Shown here in pieces: positions 6,379-45,366 of a DNA stretch of 64,000 nucleotides; within the stretch, counting starts at the first letter, position 1, and every line of letters starts with the position of its first letter. The notes under the pieces were generated by a model. That model searched no databases and was not told the DNA's origin. It saw nothing but the letters and a program-made list of their open reading frames with translations. A program made the translations under genes and the position numbers. Source of the stretch: Bifidobacterium ruminantium DSM 6489 (GTDB lineage Bacteria > Actinomycetota > Actinomycetes > Actinomycetales > Bifidobacteriaceae). Location of the stretch: NCBI RefSeq assembly GCF_000770925.1, contig NZ_JDTK01000004.1, positions 62,001 to 126,000 of the forward strand, in the 5' to 3' direction.

Positions 6379-7242
6379 TTATGCCTCTTGTGTTTCGTGG
6401 TTGTGGTGGTGGAATTGGGCGATCTCCTCAGGCGCGTGGGCGTCGACGGTCATATCGTCCGGCTCGTCCTCGCTTGGGGTCACGAACATGTCGCCTTGAG
6501 GAGTGGTGACCACTTGTACCGTAGTGCCGTACAGATGGGTGAGCAGTTTCGAATCCAGCACTTCGTTCATGCTCGCATAGTGGGGGTGTCCGTCAAGCAG
6601 ATACACGGCTCCGGTGAGAATTGGCAGTAGCATGTTCAAATCGTGGGCCACGACCTGGATCGTCATGCCGAGTTCATGGTTGAGTTTGGCGAGCACGTGC
6701 ACGGTCGCGCGTTGACTGGCCAGATCAAGGTTGGCGAGTGGCTCGTCCAGCATAAGCAGTTGCGGGTCGGACACCAGCGCCTGCGCGATGGCGACGCGTT
6801 GACGCAGACCTCCCGAGAGCTCGGACAGGCGGTATGAAGCCTTGTCCCGCATACCGACGAAGGTCAACGCGTCGCGGACCTTGTCTTTTTGCCTGCGGGT
6901 GGTGGGGTGGATGCCGAATCTGGCTCCCGTCAAGCCCAGCATCACCGACTGCTCGGCGGTGATGTTCGATTCGATGTCGGAGGCGTAGCTTTGCGGCACG
7001 TATCCGATGCGATGATTCATGGTACCGGCTGGTTGGCCGAGCACGGTGATGCTGCCCTGCGCGATGGGAACCAGGCCGAGTTCGGCCTTCATCATGGTTG
7101 TCTTGCCGGCTCCGTTGGTGCCGACGATGGCGGTCACCGAGCCCTGTGGGATCCGGAAGGTTCCATGTTGCCAGATGGTGTTCCCGCCACGTGTCACGCC
7201 CGCGTCTTTGAATTCGATGCAGGTGGCTGCTTCGTCATGCAT
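6379..7242 (-). CDS. Metal ABC transporter ATP-binding protein (ZnuC/MntA type)
   Basis: A 287-residue ABC ATPase. Walker A is GTNGAGKTTM, the Q-loop region is RIGYVPQSYASD, the signature is LSGGLRQRVAIAQAL, Walker B is LLMLDEPLANLD and the switch His is in VVAHDLNM. The C-terminal tail is acidic and ends in a His-rich stretch, QFHHHNHETQEA, which could bind metal. I start at the ATG at 7242 because AAGGAGCGG lies just upstream; the open frame runs to 7311 but crosses the likely operator at 7289-7303. The gene is followed immediately by the permease. A terminator separates it from the upstream binding-protein gene, so ATPase and permease probably have their own metal-regulated promoter. Confidence 0.93.
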   Translation of the reverse strand: MHDEAATCIEFKDAGVTRGGNTIWQHGTFRIPQGSVTAIVGTNGAGKTTMMKAELGLVPIAQGSITVLGQPAGTMNHRIGYVPQSYASDIESNITAEQSVMLGLTGARFGIHPTTRRQKDKVRDALTFVGMRDKASYRLSELSGGLRQRVAIAQALVSDPQLLMLDEPLANLDLASQRATVHVLAKLNHELGMTIQVVAHDLNMLLPILTGAVYLLDGHPHYASMNEVLDSKLLTHLYGTTVQVVTTPQGDMFVTPSEDEPDDMTVDAHAPEEIAQFHHHNHETQEA

Positions 7243-7288
7243 GGTCCGCTCCTTGGTCGTTTGCTGAAGCAATTGTTCCAAATGGTGT

Positions 7289-7303
7289 TGACAATCATTC
7301 TCA
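7289..7303. promoter_or_regulatory. Palindromic Fur/Zur-like operator before the metal transporter ATPase
   Basis: TGACAATCATTCTCA fits TGAnAATnATTnTCA, with both six-base half-sites (TGA.AAT and ATT.TCA) perfectly inverted around a central base. This resembles operators of Fur-superfamily metal sensors, Zur in particular. It lies 46 bases upstream of the ATPase start codon, a suitable place to repress the promoter. No equivalent was seen upstream of the binding-protein gene. Confidence 0.6.
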
Positions 7304-7350
7304 ATAAGCATATGTTCCGCATGCTTCCGGGAATTGCGAAGTCAGATCGC

Positions 7351-7393
7351 GGAAAAAGAAACCGCCGACGAAGTATGTTTCGTCGGCGGTTTC
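7351..7393 (-). terminator. Rho-independent terminator of the metal-binding protein gene
   Basis: A 15-bp perfect stem (7358-7372 with 7379-7393, GAAACCGCCGACGAA) is followed on the minus strand by TTTTTCC. It lies 34 bases past the stop of the substrate-binding protein and upstream of the ATPase, so most transcripts of the binding protein should end before the ATPase-permease pair. Confidence 0.85.
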
Positions 7394-7426
7394 ATGGAAT
7401 TCCCAGTGATGGATACTGTGAACGAT

Positions 7427-8506
7427 TCACTTTCCCGGATCCGTCTGACCCGTGTTGTCCGGAGAGGTTCCGTCGGTCGTGGATTCGGAGCTCGATTTCG
7501 AACCGGAATCGGATTTGGCGTCGGATGGCTGTGTGTCGGAACCGGTTTCATCGGTCCCATCCGTGGCCTTGTCTTTCTCCTTGGCAATCTCCTCGTCCAG
7601 CGTCGTGATGAGATGGGTGGTCCATTCGATCAGATCTTTGCAGTCACTCGGCATCTGTTCCGAGATATCGATAACCGGCAGATCGGATTTGTGTGCGGTT
7701 CCGGTGATGATATTCGTGGCGTCACTGGTCTCCTGTGTGTTGTTGACCAGGAAGTCGGTGCCATGGTCTTCCAGCAGTTTTTGGAATTCCTGCAGATTCT
7801 CGGAAGAGGGCTGCGAGCCGTCCGCAGTGGATTGGGAGTATCCCTCAGGTGTTTTATCGGTGAGACCTATGTCGCTGAAAAGATAGTATGCGACAGGTTC
7901 AGTGGAAGCATAGGAGATGCCTTTGAGCGATTTGGAGGATTTCTCCATATCTTTTTCGAGTTTCAACTCCCGTTTGTTCCAAGCTTTGAGGCGAGCCGAG
8001 AAGTATTTCCGCTGTTTTGGCATGATGCGACTGTAGGTGTCGGCGAGTTCCTTCGCCATGGCGTTGCGCGCATCGCTCGAGAACCATAGATGGGGGTTGT
8101 CTCCCTCGACCGCGCCGACCATCTGCGCCGCGGATACAGAAACAGCATCCTTCCGTGGGGTCTTCGTAGCCCATGAATCATATCCGGCTCCGTTGGCCAC
8201 GATGACCTGAGCTTTGTCCAATACGTCCACATCCTTGGTTTTGGGTTCGAAGTCGTGGGCGTCTGTGGTGGTGGAGGAGAGGATGGATGTGACTTTGACG
8301 TGTGATCCCCCGATCTGCTCCGCCACGGAACCCCACTGGTTGATCGAGGCTACCACCTCGATCGGAGTGGTCTGCTCGGTCTTGGTCTCAGCTGGCTGCT
8401 GGTTCGGTTCCGTCTCGTCATTGGAGCATGATGCGGTGCCGAACGCCATGCATAGGGCGATTCCCGCGGCAAAGGCGTGAAGGAATGGACGCTGGTGCGA
8501 ATGCAT
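7427..8506 (-). CDS. Metal ABC transporter substrate-binding lipoprotein (ZnuA/PsaA family, manganese-type ligands)
   Basis: A 359-residue cluster-9 metal-binding lipoprotein. The signal peptide ends in a lipobox, GTASC, with Cys near residue 27. Likely ligands are His in TTTDAHDFEPKT, His in GDNPHLWFS, and Glu in SYASTEPVAYYLF, the position held by His in zinc-type and by Glu in manganese-type (PsaA-like) proteins; the fourth is probably an acidic residue in VIDISEQ. There is no His-rich loop. The last 50 residues are a low-complexity Asp/Ser/Thr-rich tail. The ATG at 8506 is preceded by AGGAAGAAGG; upstream codons to 8584 lack a plausible signal sequence. It belongs with the ATPase and permease downstream. 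Manganese specificity is an inference from alignment by eye. Confidence 0.88.
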   Translation of the reverse strand: MHSHQRPFLHAFAAGIALCMAFGTASCSNDETEPNQQPAETKTEQTTPIEVVASINQWGSVAEQIGGSHVKVTSILSSTTTDAHDFEPKTKDVDVLDKAQVIVANGAGYDSWATKTPRKDAVSVSAAQMVGAVEGDNPHLWFSSDARNAMAKELADTYSRIMPKQRKYFSARLKAWNKRELKLEKDMEKSSKSLKGISYASTEPVAYYLFSDIGLTDKTPEGYSQSTADGSQPSSENLQEFQKLLEDHGTDFLVNNTQETSDATNIITGTAHKSDLPVIDISEQMPSDCKDLIEWTTHLITTLDEEIAKEKDKATDGTDETGSDTQPSDAKSDSGSKSSSESTTDGTSPDNTGQTDPGK

Positions 8507-8647
8507 GTGGTTGTGCCTTCTTCCTGTGACGTCTCGGTCGTGTCCATCTCGTAAACACGTGCGCGACTTATGACTTGAAACCAAGATAGTCTACGTTACT
8601 TGTAAACGCCAATACGACGAACACGGGAACGAGAGGTGTGACCCATC

Positions 8648-42828: not shown

Positions 42829-42963
42829 CGGCTTTTCCAATAGGCGTCCTTCGTGGCGGCGCCGTTGTGGGCTCATAACACGGATTGAGTGAAAAAACAA
42901 GTCTTTTCTTTCGGAGCATTTGTTGCGATAATCGGCGATGTTTGCTTTTCGAGAGGAAGAACC

Positions 42964-43362
42964 ATGCCAAGAAAACTGTTCGCCGCGATATCTCAGATTG
43001 TTCTGGGCGCGCTGATTGTCATCGCCCCGCAGACCTTCGCGCATGTGTGTGCCGTCAAAGACATGCCCATGGCATGCCACTACACCGCTCGGGTCGCTCT
43101 GGGACTGGGCGTCGTCATCGCATTGCTGGCAATAATCGGATTTTTCGCGCCAAGCCGGGTCAGGGCCGGATTGGATATCGCCAATGCCGTGCTGGGCGTG
43201 CTTGTCGTTCTGGTGCCGACCATGCTGGTAGGCGTATGCAGAGGCTCCATGATGCATTGCCATATGGTGACGATGCCGACGCTTATCGTATTGGGCGTGC
43301 TGCTGGCGGTGCTCGCAGCAGTCGCCGCATATCTCGATCTCAAGCCGGCAAAGCGTGGCTGA
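42964..43362 (+). CDS. DUF4418-family membrane protein with paired Cys/His/Met clusters
   Basis: A 132-residue protein with four predicted helices (about residues 8-26, 44-62, 70-90 and 103-125). Two polar clusters follow TM1 and TM3 and so should face the same side of the membrane: His27, Cys29, Met34, Met36, Cys38 and His39, then Cys92, Met96, Met97, His98, Cys99, His100, Met101 and Met104. This matches DUF4418, a family with no known function. The clusters could bind copper or another soft metal, or form disulfides; that is inference. GAGAGGAAGAACC precedes ATG 42964, so I prefer it to the GTG at 42889. It overlaps the next permease gene by 8 bases, implying one system. Confidence 0.78.
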   Translation: MPRKLFAAISQIVLGALIVIAPQTFAHVCAVKDMPMACHYTARVALGLGVVIALLAIIGFFAPSRVRAGLDIANAVLGVLVVLVPTMLVGVCRGSMMHCHMVTMPTLIVLGVLLAVLAAVAAYLDLKPAKRG

Positions 43363-44575
43363 CGTGCCGCATATCACCCTTGCGAAACTACCGCTGGCCA
43401 ATCTGCGTCGCAAACCATTCCGCACTTCGGCGCTTGTCATTGTGGTCGTCATGCTCACTGTGGCGTTCTATGGAGGCGCGCTGCTTTCCATGAACCTGAA
43501 CAACGGGTTGAACAGCATGCGGGAACGTATGGGCGCCGATCTGATGGTCACGCCGCAGAACACCGAGACCAAGGCGGAGGCCCTGCTTACGGGGAACGCT
43601 TCGAGCACGTTCTATTTCACCAATGACATCGGTGCTGAAGTCGCCAAGGCGGATGGCGTCTCCAAGAGCACGGTGCAGACGTACATTTCCTCGCTGGCGG
43701 CTGCCTGCTGCGACGAGAAAGTGCAGATCATCGGTTTCAACCCCGACACCGATTTCGTCATCACTCCCTGGATGGCTTCGCAGATCGATGGCACGCTCCG
43801 TCGGGGCCAGGTCGTCGCGGGATCCGGCATCAACGTGTCGACTGAAGGCACCGTCAAACTGTACGGGCATGAGTTTCCCGTGGCCGCGCAACTGGCCGAC
43901 ACCGGAACGTCGTTGGACAACTCCGTATTCGTGAATATGGACACGGTACCGGACATCATCTCCTACTCCGCCCGGACCGGACATGCGGCGATTCCTGAGA
44001 AATACGCAGGTAAGGCCGTGTCCGCCGTGCTTGTCAAGGTCAGGGATGGATATCCCGCCCGGCAGGTGGCCGCCAACATCGCCAAGGCCACGGGAATCAC
44101 AAGCCTGGGTTACGTGTATCCGGGAGGCATCACTGCGACCACTAAGGCGGATCTCAAAGCGATCATCCGCTATGCCGCCGTATTTGTGGTGGTGTTCTGG
44201 GCCATGGGTCTGATTGTGATGCTGGCCGTGTTCTCGTCATCCATGAACGAGCGCAAGCGCGAGTTCGCCGCGTACCGCATCCTTGGAGCAACCCGCGCGA
44301 CACTGGTGGGCATCATCGTCAAGGAATCGGCGATCATCGGCGTCCTCGGAGGATTGATTGGCATATCCTGCGCGTCACTGGCGGTGCTCCCATTCAACGG
44401 CCTGATTGCCGAAGAGCTGCAATTGCCCTATCTGCAGATAGGAGTCGGCAAGGTGCTGGTGCTGACGGCCGTCAGTCTGCTGTTCGCGGTGGCCACCGGC
44501 CTGATCGCCGTTATCGCCACCGCTGTGCGCCTATCCGCTCCACAGACCTATCTGACGTTGAGGGAGGGGGAATGA
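43355..44575 (+). CDS. FtsX/MacB-like ABC transporter permease
   Basis: A 406-residue permease with one N-terminal helix (about residues 24-47), an extracytoplasmic domain of about 220 residues, and three C-terminal helices around residues 270-395. The segment AVFSSSMNERKREFAAYRILGATRATLVGIIVKES is the FtsX-family coupling region. The extracytoplasmic domain contains an adjacent cysteine pair, Cys118-Cys119 (AAACCDEKVQIIGF). Start is GTG 43355, overlapping the DUF4418 stop; its own stop overlaps the ATPase start (ATGATG). Type VII (MacB-like) ABC systems often use mechanotransmission rather than transport through a pore. The substrate is unknown. Confidence 0.85.
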   Translation: MADVPHITLAKLPLANLRRKPFRTSALVIVVVMLTVAFYGGALLSMNLNNGLNSMRERMGADLMVTPQNTETKAEALLTGNASSTFYFTNDIGAEVAKADGVSKSTVQTYISSLAAACCDEKVQIIGFNPDTDFVITPWMASQIDGTLRRGQVVAGSGINVSTEGTVKLYGHEFPVAAQLADTGTSLDNSVFVNMDTVPDIISYSARTGHAAIPEKYAGKAVSAVLVKVRDGYPARQVAANIAKATGITSLGYVYPGGITATTKADLKAIIRYAAVFVVVFWAMGLIVMLAVFSSSMNERKREFAAYRILGATRATLVGIIVKESAIIGVLGGLIGISCASLAVLPFNGLIAEELQLPYLQIGVGKVLVLTAVSLLFAVATGLIAVIATAVRLSAPQTYLTLREGE

Positions 44576-45366
44576 TGGCGGAAGAGAGCATTTTGGAGAT
44601 TCGTGGGCTTACTCGCGAATTCGTGCGTCGGGGTGCGTCCTTCCCTGCGGTGGACGATGTGAGCCTCACGCTCGGTCCGGGCGAATTCTCGGCGATCGTC
44701 GGCAGATCTGGCAACGGCAAAAGCACGCTGCTCAACCTCATCACCGGATTGCTGAAACCTTCGGCTGGTTCGATCATTCTGGATGGCAGCGACGTGTCCG
44801 CTTCGGACGACAGACGGATGTCGGATTTGCGCAACCGCACCATCGGATTCGTCACGCAGATCCATACGTTGCTACCGAATCTCACAGCCATCGACAATGT
44901 GATTCTTCCCGCGGTGCTGCGCAGCGGTCCGTGGAGGGAGAAAGCCATCGTGGATGAGAGTCGGGCGACGGAACTTGTTGTGGACAGTGGACTTCCCGAT
45001 GTCATCCAGCCGGCTTCCGCACGGATGTTGTCCGCGCCGCAGTCCGACCATATGGTGCGGCGCGCGCAGATGTTATTGGATCAGGTGCTGGTAGGCGATC
45101 TCGCCTTTTGCTACCCGAAGGAGCTTTCCGGCGGCGAGATGCGGAGAGTCTCCATCGCCCGGGCATTGATGAACGAGCCGAAACTACTGATTGCCGATGA
45201 GCCTACGGGAGACTTGGACGCGGAAAACACTGCTGTGGTCATGCGATTGCTACGTCGTGTTGCGGATGATGGAACCGCGGTACTGATGGTCACCCACGAT
45301 CCGGATGCGCTCGAATACGCGGATCGCACCTACCGCATGGATAGAGGGAGACTGACGCTGATCTGA
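44572..45366 (+). CDS. ABC transporter ATP-binding protein (LolD/MacB type) with an internal insertion
   Basis: A 264-residue ATPase paired with the preceding FtsX-like permease. Walker A is VGRSGNGKSTLLNLI, the Q-loop FVTQIHTLLPNLTAIDNVILP, the signature LSGGEMRRVSIARAL, Walker B LLIADEPTGDLD and the switch His VTHDPDALEYAD. Between Q-loop and signature there are about 35 extra residues (from about 124 to 160) compared with LolD/MacB proteins. The insertion looks like a partial duplication of the helix before the signature (RATELVVDSGLPDVI and RRAQMLLDQVLVGDLAF). The gene overlaps the permease by 4 bases. With DUF4418 it completes a three-gene unit. Confidence 0.88.
   Translation: MMAEESILEIRGLTREFVRRGASFPAVDDVSLTLGPGEFSAIVGRSGNGKSTLLNLITGLLKPSAGSIILDGSDVSASDDRRMSDLRNRTIGFVTQIHTLLPNLTAIDNVILPAVLRSGPWREKAIVDESRATELVVDSGLPDVIQPASARMLSAPQSDHMVRRAQMLLDQVLVGDLAFCYPKELSGGEMRRVSIARALMNEPKLLIADEPTGDLDAENTAVVMRLLRRVADDGTAVLMVTHDPDALEYADRTYRMDRGRLTLI

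Follow-up and report, generated by a model that had tools for sequence, protein, structure and literature searches.

A conserved gene unit links DUF4418 proteins to a MacB-superfamily permease with a vicinal cysteine pair

The D-P-A gene unit

Within a 64,000-nucleotide stretch of the genome of Bifidobacterium ruminantium DSM 6489 (contig NZ_JDTK01000004.1, positions 62,001 to 126,000; the whole of this stretch is termed the window), three overlapping genes on the plus strand encode a small DUF4418 membrane protein (D), a permease of the MacB superfamily (P) and the ATPase of an ATP-binding cassette (ABC) transporter (A). The genome concerned (G000) is 2.23 Mb in size and carries this D-P-A unit on its contig 34. 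D (42964..43362) is a protein of 132 amino acids with four predicted transmembrane helices and matches the DUF4418 family (PF14387) at an E value of 1.9e-33; P (43355..44575) comprises 406 amino acids and contains an FtsX domain (PF02687, 6e-13), and A (44572..45366), of 264 amino acids, contains an ABC_tran domain (PF00005, 4.4e-33). Read as open reading frames (ORFs), D and A begin with ATG at 42964 and 44572, respectively, and P with GTG at 43355; D and P overlap by 8 bases and P and A by 4, just as an earlier note on this DNA, compiled from the letters alone, had described. In a scan against NCBIfam, D gave no match, the matches of P fell far below cut-off and the best models for A, LolD and FtsE, scored below their equivalogue cut-offs (189.1 against 307.75 bits for LolD). 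Assignment of D as an SPW repeat protein was rejected, its score being 28.8 bits against a cut-off of 31.5.

The residues that we take to be the P-loop, Q-loop, signature, Walker B and H-loop of A are all intact. In the alignment, a poorly conserved insert of variable sequence precedes the signature in all four Bifidobacterium copies and in none of the four others. The description of A as an unusual ATPase in the earlier note is thus apt for this insert, whereas the catalytic motifs are ordinary.

In the structural model of P, a helix (residues 21-59) is followed by an ectodomain (approximately residues 60-260) and then by three long helices. The closest likeness is to LolE (Z score 21.8, root mean square deviation 8.1 over 353 residues), with HrtB (Z 17.6) and MacB (Z 15.8) also matched, and a profile search of PDB sequences identified MacB at 1.4e-13. 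P has no match to the MacB_PCD domain (PF12704) at an E value of 0.001; nonetheless, its model aligns with the ectodomains of MacB and LolC/E. On the basis of the FtsX domain, the LolE-like fold and the LolD/FtsE-type ATPase, P and A constitute a MacB superfamily (type VII) ABC transporter, which bears out the MacB/FtsX-like permease of the earlier description. The same fold matches, along with LolD as the best NCBIfam model for A, are what would be expected of an ordinary member of this superfamily that extracts a lipoprotein, a peptide or heme from the outer leaflet and whose cysteines are merely structural. However, the cargo cannot be read from a superfamily fold, LolD scores below its cut-off, and such a role would leave unexplained the invariant outward cysteines, the conserved methionines and the TGA codon at Cys118 described below. 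It is therefore highly improbable, and the lipoprotein or peptide extraction proposed earlier gains no specific support from neighbourhoods that point to iron, sulfur or a Cys-rich importer.

Conserved cysteines of D and P

D possesses two predicted outer cysteine loops, the first extending from C29 to C38 and including M36 (43048..43077, plus strand) and the second from C92 to C99, including M97 and H98 (43237..43260, plus strand). C92 and C99 occur in every one of 41 DUF4418 sequences, C29 and C38 in 40 each; M36, M97 and H98 are found in 34, 37 and 30, respectively. A methionine accordingly stands two residues before the second cysteine of each loop, giving the pattern Cys...Met-x-Cys. The model of D (mean predicted local distance difference test score (pLDDT) 71.9, predicted template modelling score 0.63) comprises helices at residues 2-25, 37-61, 64-88 and 98-126, and because of this layout both loops are predicted to lie on one face of the membrane. 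Lysine and arginine together average 1.98 in the six N-terminal residues and 1.88 in the eight-residue middle loop of the 41 sequences; for the two cysteine loops the averages are 1.54 (16 residues) and 1.24 (17 residues), a modest sign that the cysteine face is outside. The four cysteines thus occupy the positions first assigned to them; they are conserved, and the model places the two clusters on the same face rather than on opposite ones.

The vicinal pair of P, Cys118-Cys119 (codons 43706..43711, plus strand), is found where the earlier note had put it and falls in a modelled ectodomain loop between strands 102-113 and 123-128. Both cysteines (CC) are present in 73 of the 75 distinct permease rows that cover the site. 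These 75 remain from 88 distinct rows after exclusion of 13, nine of which are cut short at the site (L201, L197, L211, L163, L157, L170, L156, L171 and L180). The other four (L134-L137) belong to the next permease class, which is without CC and occurs in genomes without D. This sister class, matched at an E value of ~4e-42, was encountered in G224, G414, G077 and G139, all G105-family genomes lacking DUF4418. As to the two exceptions amongst the 75, the Methylocella P has Leu-Gly at the site, its 17-kb locus containing no match to D, and in genome G117 a TGA codon takes the place of the first cysteine, with the second retained. It is probable that the CC of P is chemically reactive rather than structural.

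Co-occurrence of DUF4418 with the permease

Of 37 Bifidobacterium genomes searched for DUF4418, 17 contain it, whereas the 22 other genomes covered by the same search all lack a match. When 23 Bifidobacterium genomes were searched with P, 10 carried both proteins and 13 neither (Fisher p 9e-7, computed, as are all Fisher p values here, without removing the relatedness of the genomes); the strong P matches, of at least 476 bits, fell in exactly the 10 D genomes, all others scoring 31.3 bits or less. Across 396 genomes of the phylum, 10 had D and P, one (G117) had P only and 385 had neither (p 5e-19). Here, P matches were counted as strong at an E value of 9e-55 or better and D was counted over the Pfam cut-off, which left lower-scoring D matches in G150 and G061 uncounted. 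The next P match stood at 4e-42 and, because of this gap, the weak FtsX matches seen in 300 of the 396 genomes at 1e-15 were regarded as members of other families. Of the 138 genomes searched in the family of G418, 26 had both, five D only, none P only and 107 neither (p 2e-23). The 31 D genomes of this family were counted at an E value of 0.001, with 29 over the cut-off; the 26 include G518, a P genome whose D is just below the cut-off yet was found by a custom profile. G455 is scored without P, as the Fisher table uses the permease search as run, and on inspection its locus L197 carries a P with CC, the 27th of the family.

All 18 named Bifidobacterium loci have D directly adjoining P-A. Amongst 11 Thermoleophilia-type loci, D lies near P-A in six, within the DNA examined around each, and no D was found in the examined DNA of the other five (L084, L086, L088, L089 and L091). 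In the G418 family, 38 DUF4418 places were listed and wider stretches taken for 33; D is linked to P in 23 of these, and the 10 that show no P include several short contigs. The order and orientation of the three genes vary among loci, whilst the partners stay together, and D-P-A also occurs outside the phylum, in Treponema saccharophilum, Fusobacterium vincentii and Acetoanaerobium noterae. DUF4418 is thus mostly found with this permease; the opposite outcome, which the earlier note would have taken as a refutation, did not arise. Chance ORFs and chance neighbours are ruled out by the co-occurrence of D and P, and the conservation of the cysteines, together with this co-occurrence in three genome sets, places the unit beyond chance. 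As D and P are found together in genomes distant from one another, usually in close proximity, and both have conserved cysteines, D, P and A almost certainly form one functional unit.

Searches of mobile elements were also made. Amongst viral contigs, 109 stretches matched a pattern and none was confirmed; a tblastn search of plasmids with one DUF4418 protein gave no match, though the collection contains three DUF4418 loci that were found through P. Two unusual arrangements were observed. The DUF4418 protein of Treponema saccharophilum (L111, 7771-7974), which bears that annotation, has 67 amino acids and two of the four cysteines, resembling a minimal, half-size form beside P-A. Thermoleophilia-type loci, as illustrated by L090 (11941-18531), encode a foldase resembling SurA and long secreted proteins of Ig-like type between P-A and a second DUF4418 gene.

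A candidate selenocysteine in one permease

The P gene of G117 (locus L217, G117:C30, minus strand, approximately 7310-8515) has an in-frame TGA at the first cysteine of CC, and the remainder of its ORF is open. A formate dehydrogenase gene of the same genome (L247, 6921) also contains an in-frame TGA, open for 829 codons before and 542 codons after, at what we take to be the selenocysteine (Sec) site of this enzyme. G117 most likely decodes TGA as Sec because its formate dehydrogenase carries TGA at this site, and the TGA of its P very probably does specify Sec, which would create a Sec-Cys pair and make this permease a candidate new selenoprotein. In the available portions of a review, the Sec-bearing transporter parts include SaoX, SaoB, SaoP and YeeE/YedE; the term 'FtsX' is absent from its main text and 'permease' appears there twice, both times for SaoP (PMC13188914).

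Genomic neighbourhoods

The surroundings of D-P-A include iron, importer and sulfur types, the first of these in Fusobacterium and some Actinomycetota. In Fusobacterium, the gene order is FtrD, two FetBC-like permeases, an ATPase, FMN_bind, D, P and A, with D-P-A directly following a cluster of the Fet/Sif iron-uptake type. L191 has this same order, and the unit likewise directly follows such a cluster in L193, where FetBC and FMN_bind are present and the contig ends before FtrD, and in L203 and L204 (FMN_bind, P, A, D). In L061 it stands beside one, amongst FetBC-like permeases, ATPases, FtrD and ResB and NapC/NirT genes. FtrD is a neighbour of D-P-A in L112, L061, L191, L203 and L204. Within Bifidobacterium, FtrD is present in all 17 D genomes and D is absent from all eight FtrD-less ones (p 0.004). 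In the window genome, FTR1 and FtrD lie on contig 6 and D-P-A on contig 34, and the two do not share a cluster.

Ten of the scanned loci encode an NMT1-type binding protein in the vicinity of D-P-A, among them L068 (3500-4642), L111 (approximately 6607-7695) and L214 (12749-13837). The Treponema (L111) and G418 (L068) copies have four cysteines in common, which suggests a thiol- or metal-binding ligand. The Cys-rich form was rejected as a universal partner, since it was found at an E value of 1e-25 in 2 of the 396 phylum genomes, one of them with D, and the window genome has no match to it.

Sulfur-type neighbours were picked by eye, without a background count of such genes beside other genes. 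In G117, TusA/YedF-, YedE/TsuA- and TusB/TusC-like genes, all below cut-offs, lie beside P-A. As read from ORFs, G105 has a set similar to the TusA/YedE-like one of G117 and G171 has DsrE-like ORFs beside D. A rhodanese gene adjoins D in L065 and L184 and SufU in L208, and the Treponema locus has cysteine synthase and Rrf2 neighbours. The thiol and sulfur genes of Treponema, L065, L184 and G117, along with the two cysteine pairs of D and the CC or Sec-Cys of P, would suit a thiol-redox module without metal transport, one that supplies or recycles reducing power outside the membrane or isomerizes disulfides, with either disulfides or a thiol destined for export, for instance cysteine, as its cargo. 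Likewise, the available part of a study of Campylobacter jejuni proposes that the reducing power of FetE/F likely comes from FetBCD (PMC10783030). However, the methionine two residues before the cysteine in both loops of D would be more expected of a soft-metal site, and neither D nor P contains a CxxC motif, and we regard a purely redox module as rather unlikely.

In a Pelobacter plasmid cluster (L115, 5509-7839), genes for a heavy-metal P-type ATPase and for a metal-sensitive regulator stand next to those for a DUF2318 protein, a CC-less FtsX permease and an ATPase.

Copper handling was amongst the earlier proposals. In this scenario D would collect a Cu(I)-like or other toxic soft-metal ion at the outer face and P-A would help in its removal, for which the Cys/Met/His loops of D appear suited. 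The DUF2318 (FtrD) proteins are placed in a Firmicutes CsoR regulon in the accessible part of one source (PMC4938975), and the Pelobacter plasmid combines a DUF2318 gene, an FtsX permease and ATPase, and a metal P-type ATPase. Set against this, the Pelobacter permease scores the FetBC profile above P, has no CC and has no DUF4418 in its locus, and CsoR, CopA and CopZ genes were not seen beside D-P-A in the annotated loci. A resemblance of D to copper storage proteins (Csp, Z up to 12.9) was rejected, as it is one of many four-helix matches, which include invertase inhibitors, designed bundles, claudins and TARPs. Copper handling is therefore improbable and has no specific support, the neighbourhoods pointing rather to iron, sulfur or a Cys-rich importer.

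Regulation and expression

In Bifidobacterium longum GT15 exposed to tumour necrosis factor alpha, a DUF4418 gene was downregulated (log2 -2.24), as was the permease gene that follows it (log2 -2.12), according to the available part of the report (PMC7701253). The Discussion of that report counts the permease as upregulated, contrary to its own Table 1.

A palindromic, operator-like site lies upstream of D in the window (42892..42912, plus strand; core CAAGNCTT). Of 20 Bifidobacterium loci, 19 have its core pattern, CAAGN[CG]TT[GT], within the 120 bases that precede D, compared with 23 of 4000 random 120-base stretches taken from these loci; the pattern was itself derived from the 20 loci, after a stricter one had fitted 4 of them. 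A UvrD/PcrA-like helicase gene, read from its ORF, precedes D in the window, and this gene also precedes D at each of the 18 named Bifidobacterium loci, within ~0.5 kb in 16.

Proposed function of D-P-A

In MacB-type machines, ATP inside the cell drives movement of the ectodomain outside, and these machines are not classical channels. What sets D-P-A apart as a module of the MacB superfamily is an unusual thiol site, together with a membrane partner of its own. We propose that P and A would operate as such a machine, with ATP inside moving the ectodomain of P outside, and that the CC of this ectodomain would exchange a thiophilic species with the two outward Cys...Met-x-Cys loops of D. This species could be a soft metal, such as iron bound by thiolates, or sulfane sulfur, or else electrons passed via disulfides, and the ATP-driven motion would render the exchange directional. 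The unit would then feed lineage-specific partners, namely FtrD/FetBCD/FMN-binding (Sif) iron uptake in Fusobacterium, some Actinomycetota and perhaps bifidobacteria, and in other lineages the Cys-rich NMT1-type importer or a TusA/YedE-like sulfur pathway. ATP-driven thiophile or disulfide exchange is the simplest model because of the conserved thiols on D and P and the likely selenol in one P.

The pairing of D with P and the conserved residues are well supported; the cargo and the direction are inferred. The reading as a whole, in which ATP powers a relay of thiophilic species outside the membrane in support of iron or sulfur acquisition, is advanced with moderate confidence. That the unit participates in acquiring iron, sulfur or both is held with a similar, middling degree of confidence, and the choice of a metal relay over pure thiol redox appears evenly balanced. 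Much more tentative, and on the whole doubtful, is the specific proposal of a new class of MacB-type machine which, by means of a Cys-Cys or Sec-Cys pair, would exchange iron bound by thiolates, iron-sulfur species or sulfane sulfur with DUF4418 in one direction or the other, feeding Fet/Sif, Cys-rich import or TusA/YedE-like pathways in several phyla. The soft-metal or thiol-redox role first suggested in the earlier note finds support in the Met-x-Cys pattern, in the apparent exchange of Cys for Sec and in the locus of a CC-less permease without DUF4418.

A number of observations weigh against the proposed relay. Residues 111-120 of P, which form the CC loop, are modelled with low confidence (mean pLDDT 56). 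G117 has P and no DUF4418 match in the profile search, and the five D-only genomes amongst the 31 of the G418 family gave no P in the search, although one of them, G455, has it. With regard to iron, 12 of the 29 Bifidobacterium genomes with FtrD are without D and most of the D-P-A loci examined lie outside any Fet-type cluster. The operator-like site was not found in the 18-kb FtrD/FTR1 stretch of G000, a shared operator of D and the FtrD cluster was accordingly rejected for that stretch, and simple co-regulation is therefore weakened. As to Sec, no tRNA-Sec or Sel gene was found in the 1.08 Mb examined of the ~2.3-Mb G117. A selenocysteine insertion sequence was rejected as proof of Sec, since the hairpin after the TGA has a z value of -0.54, with 56 of 200 shuffles as good, and 136 of 388 in-frame 42-mers of the same P gene fold as well as the stretch that follows the TGA.

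DUF4418, to which no function is assigned in the literature searched, is now tied to one class of permease, to conserved, reactive-looking cysteines and to clusters of iron or sulfur genes. This makes it a transport unit open to experiment in organisms that include bifidobacteria, Fusobacterium and Treponema.

Comparison with known systems

In the searched literature, as far as the available texts extend, the term DUF4418 was met only as a line of an expression table (PMC7701253), and the accessible passages on relatives of FetBCD/SifBCD do not describe a further permease with DUF4418. Within the compass of that literature, the unit remains the candidate undescribed system that it was first taken to be. 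In common with LolCDE, MacB and HrtBA, it has the fold of P and the kind of ATPase represented by A; it is distinguished from them by the CC and the DUF4418 partner, and no equivalogue model was passed. DsbB and VKOR possess four transmembrane helices with cysteine pairs facing outside, a layout that is also predicted for D. Despite this likeness, D has no such Pfam match and carries Met-x-Cys loops, and in Foldseek it matches VKOR entries only at E values of ~2, along with many unrelated four-helix bundles.

In 2023, Haft and Gwadz reportedly described the Sao proteins (SaoX, SaoP and SaoA) as an ABC importer rich in selenocysteine. In some lineages D-P-A has NMT1-type importers beside it that are relatives of these three proteins, and both systems place Sec/Cys chemistry around transport. 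However, these importers score below the Sao cut-offs (SaoX 59.9-80.0 against 300, SaoP 86.3 and 92.7 against 295, SaoA 200 against 360). SaoP and SaoA are still the best models for the two importer permeases and one ATPase scanned, and the three binding proteins scanned fit the SsuA family better than SaoX, by a margin that ranges from slight to clear. D, P and A themselves match no Sao model, and the window contains no Sao-type importer.

The Fet/Sif systems (FetMP-FetABCDEF of C. jejuni and bfeUO-sifABCDE of Bifidobacterium breve) resemble D-P-A in combining an FtsX-type permease and ATPase with a Cys-bearing membrane partner. The two differ in that D is not FtrD, that P has CC and no MacB_PCD match, whereas the scanned FetB/C-like proteins match MacB_PCD, and that D-P-A stands alone in the window. 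P is also not FetB or FetC, as the classes are separated by profile scores and both can be found in one locus. FetA-D and SifA-E are required under iron limitation, fetA-D and sif mutants having an iron phenotype (PMC10783030 and PMC5449479, available parts). The C. jejuni authors state, in the accessible text, that it is still not clear what FetBCD does and which substrate it acts on (PMC10783030). D-P-A bears on this question as a related module that offers a sharper chemical handle, in the form of a vicinal cysteine pair and its likely Sec version.

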